This document shows, piece by piece, positions 53,069-55,842 of a DNA stretch of 64,000 nucleotides. A program made the translations under genes and the position numbers. Within the stretch, counting starts at the first letter, position 1. The number at the start of each line of letters is the position of its first letter. The notes under the pieces are model-generated. The model did no database searches and was not told the DNA's origin. It saw only the letters and a program-made list of their open reading frames with translations. Source of the DNA: Methanolobus sp. WCC4 (GTDB lineage: Archaea > Halobacteriota > Methanosarcinia > Methanosarcinales > Methanosarcinaceae); the NCBI RefSeq assembly GCF_038022665.1, contig NZ_CP150629.1:1-64000 (forward strand), in the 5' to 3' direction.

Positions 53069-53542
53069 CTAAGATTGTGCTATCCCTCGCCTTACATCCA
53101 CTGCAGGACCCCTGTCCATATGGATGGCCTCGTCAGGAGACAACAATAACTGACCTGTGGCCAGAACGGCATCCGAATCGTCGACCAGTATCACTTCGTC
53201 GCCTGCTCTTAAATTCGGGTCGACTGCCATGACATGTTTTGCAAAAGCGGTCTTTCCCTTTGATACAAAAGGAACAGCATCCTCACAGATAACGACCCTT
53301 GATGCGGGTTTCTCGAGAATGTCATGAAGAGCAACGGCGCCACCTATACCGAGAGTGAGCATACCATCCTTTGCACGAACGGTTGCCAGGTGCTTGCCCT
53401 TATACTGGACCTGCCTCACGCGCTTGGTCCTTGAAAGCTGGAAAGTGACATCATCCGGAAAAAGAACTTCTCCACTGCCTTTTCCGAACTGGATATCAGC
53501 CATTATCCTTACTTTTTTGAGATTCTTATCAATATTGCTCAT
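53069..53542 (-). CDS. PUA-domain RNA-binding protein (archaeosine TGT C-domain-like)
   Basis: 157 residues. The N-terminal KKVRIMADIQFGKGSGEVLFPDD is the signature of the small domain preceding PUA in archaeosine transglycosylase relatives. The PUA domain follows with RVVICEDAVPFVSKGKTAFAKHV and LRAGDEVILVDDSDAVLATGQ. It lacks the catalytic TGT domain, so it is a stand-alone tRNA- or rRNA-binding protein, possibly an accessory of tRNA modification. A single-gene transcript; the 823-bp interval upstream contains no protein gene. Confidence 0.87.
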   Translation of the reverse strand: MSNIDKNLKKVRIMADIQFGKGSGEVLFPDDVTFQLSRTKRVRQVQYKGKHLATVRAKDGMLTLGIGGAVALHDILEKPASRVVICEDAVPFVSKGKTAFAKHVMAVDPNLRAGDEVILVDDSDAVLATGQLLLSPDEAIHMDRGPAVDVRRGIAQS

Positions 53543-53683: not shown

Positions 53684-53694
53684 GCCGAACACAT

Positions 53695-53702
53695 TTATAT
53701 AT
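53695..53702 (+). promoter_or_regulatory. TATA box of the predicted small RNA
   Basis: TTTATATA lies 20-27 bp before the 5-prime end of the RNA helix at 53722, the normal archaeal TATA-to-start spacing. Confidence 0.65.
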
Positions 53703-53721
53703 AATAATGACTAATTATTAC

Positions 53722-53848
53722 TTGAGGAACGAGAGCAACTGCTTGTAACTGTATTCAAAGGTATAGTAACTGTAACCAAGCAAAACCATTCATCCCCTCA
53801 AACATGTTCTCGTTTCCTCGTTGCTCAATAAAGCAACGGACTTTTTTT
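53722..53848 (+). ncRNA. Predicted small non-coding RNA, about 127 nt
   Basis: A 5-prime arm from G724 to A737 (GAGGAACGAGAGCA) pairs with 53805-53819 (TGTTCTCGTTTCCTC) over 14 bp with one bulged T, enclosing TGCTTG/CAAGCA (53740-53745 with 53777-53782) and a weaker inner stem CTGTAT/GTATAG. The 3-prime end is the hairpin GTTGCT-loop-AGCAAC (53820-53837) and then T7 (53842-53848), an intrinsic-terminator layout. GAGCAAC (53733-53739) is also perfectly complementary to GTTGCTC (53820-53826), so the terminator arm has an alternative partner. No ORF or known RNA class (5S, SRP, RNase P) fits. Confidence 0.68.
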
Positions 53849-54014
53849 CTTCAAATTATTGTGACCTTTAGATGTAGCTTTGTCTTTTGACAGTTGATTT
53901 TGGGTAAATCACAATCACATCAATGTTTTAAATTACAAGTATGCAGAAAAAGAGTTTTATCAAATACCAACGCAACCATCCGCCGCAGGCGGCGTGTTCC
54001 TTCACTGCCAAGAA

Positions 54015-54316
54015 GATTATTGAAATAATGGCAGTAATTGAAAATTATTAAGTTCAAAGATGTAGCTTGAAAAATACCGCCTTTAGCCACTGTTTTTACT
54101 TGCTGGTACGCAAAAAGAGTAAAAGACAAACTACTATATTTCCACTTTTTCGGACCGTGCCGGCTTCGCCGGGACCCTTCGGGATGGTTTGAGTTATTTA
54201 TAACTTCCGATTATCCTAATTCATTAGTTCCTACTCTTGTGTTTCTAATAATTCAACACAAGATCATTGAAATAATGCAGTAATTGAAAACTAATGTTCC
54301 AAAGCTGCAACTTGAA
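54015..54316. repeat. Pair of direct repeats R1 and R2 (55-57 bp) with hairpins between
   Basis: R1 (54015-54071) and R2 (54262-54316) share a nearly identical first 30 bp (one substitution, one indel): GAT(T/C)ATTGAAATAATG, then CAGTAATTGAAAA. The tails TTCAAAGATGTAGCTTGAA and TTCCAAAGCTGCAACTTGAA are related. The core ATTATT-GA-AATAAT in R1 is itself palindromic. They could be remnants of a small non-autonomous element or duplicated RNA/operator modules. Confidence 0.6.
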
Positions 54317-54365: not shown

Positions 54366-55832
54366 TTAACCTTTCACAACTCCCATCGGAAGGACACGTG
54401 CAACCTTTGTGGCAATTCCGAGATCATGAACAACATCAACTACATCGCTGCTGGATTTGTACACTTCCGGTGCTTCCTCAGCTATCAGTGAAGGCTGGGT
54501 GGCCCTTACGATAATACCCTGTGATCTCAGGTCCTTCTGTATATCCTCGCCGCGAAGCTCTTTCTTTGCACTCTTTCGGCTCATTACCCTTCCTGCACCA
54601 TGACAGGCACTGCCGAAGGTGAGTTCCATTGAATTAGGACCGCCTTTCAGGACATAGGATGCAGTGCCCATGCTACCGGGGATGATGACCGGCTGGCCGA
54701 TGTCACGGTAGTCATCAGGGACCTCGGGGTGTCCGGCAGGGAATGCTCTGGTGGCACCTTTCCTGTGGACGTATACCTTCTTCTCCTCGCCATCGATCAT
54801 GTGTTTCTCGAGTTTGGCGACATTATGTGCCACGTCATAGACGAGGTCTAGTCCGAGATCACCGTGTTCTGCTTTGAAGAAGTCATCGAATACCTCACGG
54901 GACCAGTGCATGATCACCTGACGGTTGACCCATGCATAGTTAGCCGCACATATCATGGCCTTGAAATAGTCCTGTGCTTCCTCCGAACTGGCAGGAGCAC
55001 ATGCAAGCTGCTTGTCCGGCAGAGGGATGTTGTACTTCTTCGAGGCCTTTGTGAGATTCTGTAGATGGTCGGTACATATCTGGTGTCCGGCTCCACGGGA
55101 ACCGCAGTGTATCATGAATGTGATCTGCCCTTCCTTCAGGCCGAAAGCCTCAGCTGCCTCTTCGTCATAGACCTTGTCCACATACTGCACCTCAAGGAAA
55201 TGATTACCACTACCAAGTGTGCCTATCTGTGGCCTGCCTCTCTTACGTGCCTTCACGCTGACCTTTGAAGGATCTGCTCCACGCATCATACCGTTGCTCT
55301 CACAATGGGCAAGGTCGTTCTTCACACCATAGCCATTCTTCACGGCCCACTGCACACCATGGATGAATATGGCATCAAGCTCGGTATCGTTCACCCTCAG
55401 ACGGCTCTTAGAACCTACACCGGAAGGTATTGCCTCGAAGAGTGCATCGAGCAGTTCAGGGAGTTTTGGACGGACATCCTCTTCCATGAGATTGGAACGT
55501 ACCAGGCGGACACCGCAGTTGATGTCAAAACCCACACCACCCGGACTTATCACACCTTCATCCTTGTCGAAGGCTGCCACACCACCAATGGAGAAACCAT
55601 ATCCAAGGTGTGCATCCGGCATTGCCATGGAAAACTTCTGTATGCCGGGAAGGCATGCAACATTTGCCACCTGGTCGATGGTCTCCCTTTCAAGGAGATC
55701 AAGCAGGGTCTTCGATACGAATATCCTCCCCGGGACCTTCATATCAGGTTTGAAGTTACCGGGCACCTCCCATGTGTTATCATTAACTTTAGTAAGAACA
55801 TCATAAACCGAACTTTCATTATCCTCTGACAT
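54366..55832 (-). CDS. rtcB: RNA-splicing ligase RtcB
   Basis: About 488 residues, no intein. Active-site segments are [16 protein letters not shown] (metal Cys), [10 protein letters not shown] and [10 protein letters not shown] (metal His residues), and [12 protein letters not shown], which holds the His that becomes guanylylated. It joins 2-prime,3-prime-cyclic phosphate and 5-prime-OH RNA ends, including tRNA exon halves. The start is the second ATG (55832), 6 bp from the perfect AGGAGG; the first ATG is only 3 bp away from it. The archease gene upstream encodes its activator. Confidence 0.96.
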
Positions 55833-55842
55833 CATTATCCTC

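Follow-up and report, generated by a model that had tools for sequence, protein, structure and literature searches.

A putative antisense small RNA of Methanolobus and its predicted partner, the leader of a winged-helix mRNA in Methanosarcinia

In a window of 64,000 nucleotides from the genome of Methanolobus sp. WCC4 (contig NZ_CP150629.1, positions 1 to 64,000), an intergenic stretch of the plus strand carries the gene of a small RNA which is, with a probability of about 0.87, a trans-acting antisense sRNA of ~100-130 nt whose core would pair with the 5' leader of the mRNA of a winged-helix protein. Judged from the sequence comparisons given below, it would seem to serve as an RNA switch dedicated to this winged-helix regulator and to form a new, widely conserved family within a known kind of RNA, the base-pairing sRNAs of archaea. 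Its transcription, the pairing in the cell and the direction and outcome of the regulation are what we infer from these comparisons. The preliminary description of the locus had seen an orphan transcript, to which the conserved core, the target mRNA and the class-wide spread are now added.

Gene, fold and conservation of the sRNA in Methanosarcinaceae

The sRNA body spans 53722-53820 on the plus strand, as delimited by a match to covariance model R1 (G000:C1:53722-53820, E = 5.7e-21, G000 being the genome of the window), and is present in one copy in this genome. A TATA box, TTTATATATA, lies on the same strand at 53694-53703, ~20 nt 5' of where the RNA body starts (53722), and it keeps this placement with respect to the body across an alignment of 64 relatives, with the variant TTTAAATAT in other genera. 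In the minimum free energy (MFE) fold, a closing helix of 14 bp is formed between the 5' arm GAGGAACGAGAGCA (53724-53737) and the 3' arm TGTTCTCGTTTCCTC (53805-53819), with a single bulged U at 53813. It encloses an inner hairpin at 53740-53782 (MFE fold and covariation count), made of a UGCUUG (53740-53745)/CAAGCA (53777-53782) stem and an apical stem, and the unpaired, nearly invariant core AAACCATTCATCCCCTCA at 53783-53800, for which pairing with the target leaders is predicted. At 53820-53848 there is a terminator-like GTTGCT/AGCAAC hairpin (53820-53837) followed by T7 (53842-53848), these elements all being on the plus strand. Folding of 53719-53848 gave an MFE of -33.4 kcal/mol against -21.0 +/- 3.5 for shuffled sequences, 0 of 200 shuffles being as good (z = -3.5), and a terminator scan recovered the same hairpin, with 5 terminator-like sites in the whole intergenic region where the shuffles predict 0.3. 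The TATA box, the one-bulge closing helix with its inner stem and the hairpin with T7 had all been read from the letters in the preliminary description and all of them stand, the terminator hairpin being retained in only part of the genus.

The same description had held that the stretch encodes no ORF and corresponds to no known archaeal RNA such as 5S, SRP or RNase P, and both statements were borne out. Indeed, no plus-strand ORF of at least 60 aa overlaps the sRNA and its homologues are distinguished by non-triplet indels in the alignment, so that a short-protein reading was rejected. A search of Rfam 15 gave no match at gathering score and a permissive search returned chance-level matches only; a housekeeping RNA was rejected because of this result, and a C/D or H/ACA guide RNA was set aside given that no Rfam match exceeded the threshold and no boxes were seen by eye.

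Both neighbour genes of the sRNA are on the minus strand. The divergent one (53069-53542) encodes a protein with TGT_C2 and PUA domains and an archaeosine-synthase-like C-terminus (Pfam PF14810 and PF01472; synteny), and the convergent one (54366-55835) is rtcB, encoding the RtcB RNA ligase (Pfam PF01139, E = 6e-183; synteny). Between the sRNA and rtcB, an imperfect direct repeat of ~35 bp (AAGATYATTGAAATAATG-GCAGTAATTGAAAAYTA) is found at 54013-54047 and 54260-54293, with a spacing of ~247 bp.

A DNA search gave matches in 68 of 150 relatives, and R1, built from 48 distinct sequences, finds the sRNA in 65 genomes of Methanosarcinaceae (family f1) belonging to 8 genera, with E <= 2e-11; a weak match of G138 to R1 looks like chance. 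The gene order PUA gene, sRNA, rtcB is retained in every locus read with flanks long enough. Across f1 the TATA box, the closing helix and a GCTTG/CAAGC hairpin are conserved, the best-conserved part of the 64-relative alignment being the unpaired stretch ACTGTAAYCAAGCAAA(A)CCATTCATCCCCTCAAA. Immediately 5' of the core, ACTGTAAYCAAG (53769-53780) is conserved at nearly the same level, yet it has no partner in the target. The closing helix is paired in 96.3% of the alignment cells compared to 45-58% when the partner is slid, and the stem of the inner hairpin in 95.6-100%. Compensatory changes in relatives, which had been proposed as a check of the helix, were found as well, with 6 pairs of the closing helix changed on both sides against a mean of 2.5 in shuffles that ignore kinship. 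Furthermore, a U-rich tract lies downstream in 59 of the 64 relatives and, together with the conserved TATA box, provides the promoter-like and 3' end signals of an independent gene.

Complementary sites in the leader of a winged-helix gene

The target was sought by pattern searches and by reading selected stretches. A 15-base core pattern was run on 186 genomes of the order with the reversed pattern as control; besides its single match at the sRNA, ~30 genomes show a second one at another place, against 0 occurrences of the control in any genome. Twenty-one of these second-place loci were read and 18 belong to the 5' leader of one and the same gene, which encodes a winged-helix protein, usually with two sites ~30-37 nt apart, the remaining ones being unrelated (L173, L176) or a copy of the sRNA of family f3 (L174). 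The sense strand of the target leader reads TCTGAGGGGATGAATGGTTT. In the genome of the window, the winged-helix gene is located at G000:C1:2798332-2799219 on the minus strand and its leader sites at C1:2799280-2799296 and 2799243-2799259, and this is the one place in the genome with a tandem pair at three mismatches or fewer to the complement of the core. Moreover, the sites are present in the orthologous leaders of the f1, f2, f3, f5 and f6 genomes read.

According to the alignment, the winged-helix protein (~175-390 aa) has a short domain at its N-terminus (MKVRLEIIDDDG...) and a winged helix at its C-terminus, for which the Pfam matches, to Penicillinase_R and MarR_2, are weak; the f1 proteins additionally possess a Gln/Pro-rich linker. 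EarA was considered as its identity and set aside: winged-helix matches were weak or absent in searches of Pfam, NCBIfam and PDB, and no Methanosarcinales EarA sequence was found in a literature search. TTCACA/TGTGAA-like elements (e.g. GTGTTCACAA) recur upstream of the winged-helix start in several families (in the genome of the window, L198 3220-3410, minus strand) and are possibly an operator for self-regulation of the winged-helix gene.

Single near-matches to the core complement were also observed at other start codons. One of the two nearest in the genome of the window (one mismatch) is GGAGGGAATGAATGG at G000:C1:657956-657969 (L088), at the start codon of a gene encoding 211 aa; this gene was the first target guess, set aside after the tandem leader sites were found, and it could be a second target. 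In f2, CTGAGGGGATGAA lies just before the start codons of two further genes that recur (L295, L296, L303, L320, L321 and L297, L306), which are, by sequence, possible further targets.

In f1 leaders, folding predicts two hairpins, each with the GAGG of TCTGAGGGGAT in its loop, and in several genera the Shine-Dalgarno sequence downstream of the sites is predicted to be mostly open. In the proposed mechanism, the long closing helix and the small hairpin of the sRNA would hold out the unpaired core CCAUYCAUCCCCUC, whose CCCCUC would meet a GAGG loop and start a loop-to-single-strand contact; the leader hairpin would then open and the duplex would zip to ~16-20 bp. Binding 20-75 nt before the start codon would alter translation or stability of the mRNA. 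The duplex might cap the two GAGG loops, which resemble Shine-Dalgarno sequences and closely precede the ribosome site, and ribosome loading could thereby be hindered. We lean to such repression, at about 60:40 against stabilisation or activation in this model, given the likeness of these loops to a tandem of Shine-Dalgarno sequences shortly before the genuine one. It is not evident that the ribosome site would simply be masked, since the second site ends ~22 nt before the AUG, and in several genera the predicted fold already leaves the Shine-Dalgarno sequence mostly open. It is conceivable, with somewhat less probability, that the same antisense pair activates, the mRNA being stabilised or ribosome loading aided upon binding. 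By analogy, sRNA154 of Methanosarcina mazei stabilises several mRNAs, for which masking of cleavage sites was proposed (PMC5867862), and the sites studied here are upstream of the ribosome site within hairpins predicted to be stable; against activation stand the likeness of the loops to Shine-Dalgarno sequences and the folded leaders, in which no anti-Shine-Dalgarno element that the sRNA could release was predicted.

Predicted pairing, co-change and distribution in the class

For the 41 genomes with both parts, the predicted pairing ranges from -20.6 to -39.3 kcal/mol per site. In the genome of the window, site 1 (-31.7) is beaten by 0 of 21,299 background windows, which were drawn from the 64 kb, and 1 of them is as good as site 2 (-23.7); the best value among shuffled cores was -22.0, obtained against the site of a relative. 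Both of these sites contain an insertion of 1-2 nt at which the predicted duplex bulges, hence they appear slightly decayed, and most Methanolobus show a single A-C mismatch at site 1.

The two partners change together, both between and within families. Indeed, the f3 sRNA has CATCCATC and its leader GATGGATG, compared to CATTCATC in the f1 sRNA and mostly GATGAATG in the f1 leader, and the sRNA of genome G044 has CCGTTC and its second site GAACGG. When eight cores were swapped against eleven sites, the leader of its own family is the best partner for nearly every core, as for the f3 copy-A core with f3 (-34.5), f5 with f5 (-41.8) and f6 with f6 (-36.9, with 18 uninterrupted pairs). The exceptions are the f2 core, which is nearly as good with f5 leaders, and the G044 core, which is better with a site of genus g3 than with its own second site. 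Two marks of a base-pairing sRNA were thus found, namely a conserved single-stranded segment with complementarity to an mRNA encoded elsewhere and compensating changes between sRNA and target (f3 versus f1, G044, and f2, f5 and f6), and the predicted sRNA-leader pairing is strongly supported. A single RNA-binding protein that recognises both the sRNA and the leader, the complementarity not being used for pairing, would be suggested by the tandem-hairpin GAGG loops, which are similar to those of protein-binding leaders such as CsrA targets; it is very improbable given that the two sequences are complementary and not identical and that their changes compensate.

Analogous RNAs built on other helices around the same CATYCATCCCCTC core are found in f2, f3, f5 and f6. 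Versions with GGGGCA...GCCCC occur in 8 of the 8 f5 genomes searched, a family we infer to be Methanoperedens, and in most of the 8 f2 genomes searched, and another version occurs in both f6 genomes searched; in all versions folding leaves CATCCATCCCCTC unpaired or in a loop. Family f3 has two sRNA loci. Copy A precedes a riboflavin-pathway reductase-like gene (MRPYVFINAAMSxDGKIS) by ~20 nt on the same strand (L085:2009-2108; L147 ~1960-2070) and could be made from the leader of its mRNA, and the second copy lies elsewhere with its own TATA box and U-rich end. Copy A is what would speak for a cis-acting leader, or an untranslated transcript with no trans function, which is the least credible of the readings considered: the Methanosarcinaceae neighbours are both on the opposite strand, and the second f3 copy has its own signals. 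A cis-regulatory leader or riboswitch was likewise rejected on the opposite orientation of rtcB in the window and in f1 relatives, with f3 copy A as the exception.

In f7, an RNA with this layout is found in one genome, G190, although no GAGGGG site is present in the winged-helix leaders read in this family; other targets of the core are therefore conceivable. It would then be a general binder of Shine-Dalgarno-like sites (CCCCUC/GAGGGG) acting on a regulon of several mRNAs, with the winged-helix leader as its best or oldest target or as a decoy. The occurrence of CATYCATCCCCTC in every version, including that of the f7 genome whose leader has no site, and the near-matches at other start codons in the genome of the window, e.g. 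at G000:C1:657956, agree with this reading. We nevertheless regard it as unlikely in view of the single tandem pair in that genome and the co-change of the sRNA with the winged-helix leader.

The winged-helix gene was found in 171 of 238 genomes of the class. The f1 genera without it (g2, g7, g9, g10 and g11) are the same genera without the sRNA, g7 being apparently Methanosarcina; matches of g7 to a second model, R2 (<= 33 bits, core not intact), look like chance. In genus g12 of f1, the gene with its sites was found and the sRNA was not, in two MAGs ~75% complete, and in G061 and G080 the sRNA was found and the winged-helix gene was not, in MAGs 83% and 60% complete. This joint absence could reflect one or two loss events and, since it may be a single event, it supports a link between sRNA and gene and does not prove it. 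On balance, we think it rather probable that the two form a dedicated sRNA-mRNA pair across most of Methanosarcinia, in which the core is near-fixed, the scaffold was replaced several times, the tandem GAGG loops are a coevolving receptor and sRNA and regulator were lost jointly in the Methanosarcina lineage.

Relation to known archaeal RNAs

To our knowledge, few archaeal sRNAs have a defined target, and these are mostly conserved within one genus. For the present sRNA a target can be named, the duplex is predicted to the single base and natural compensatory mutants exist, over a range which includes methylotrophic methanogens and Methanoperedens-type methane oxidisers. It also points to an uncharacterised putative regulator kept across the class. 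Established genetics exist for Methanosarcina and, if this genus is truly without both parts, it would offer a clean background for reconstituting the pair with a reporter.

As a structured non-coding RNA of archaea, the sRNA is similar to the families of Rfam 15 (5S, SRP, RNase P, C/D and H/ACA guides and others). In Methanolobus psychrophilus R15, which belongs to the same genus, 195 intergenic sRNA start sites were reported by dRNA-seq (PMC5378194); the window sRNA may well be among them, and the main-text passages of that article consulted here describe no structure or target for this RNA. The sRNA154, sRNA162 and sRNA41 of M. mazei are likewise intergenic RNAs of a methanogen, with unpaired regions that pair with mRNAs (PMC3510493, PMC5867862). 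No homology to these three was found, and g7 shows neither an R1 match nor the core pattern. Among them sRNA162, which targets the mRNA of a transcription factor, is the closest precedent for a methanogen sRNA controlling such an mRNA (PMC3510493). The window sRNA differs from the M. mazei sRNAs by its predicted pairing, which involves a tandem of hairpin loops 5' of the ribosome site, and by being kept over several families as opposed to one genus.
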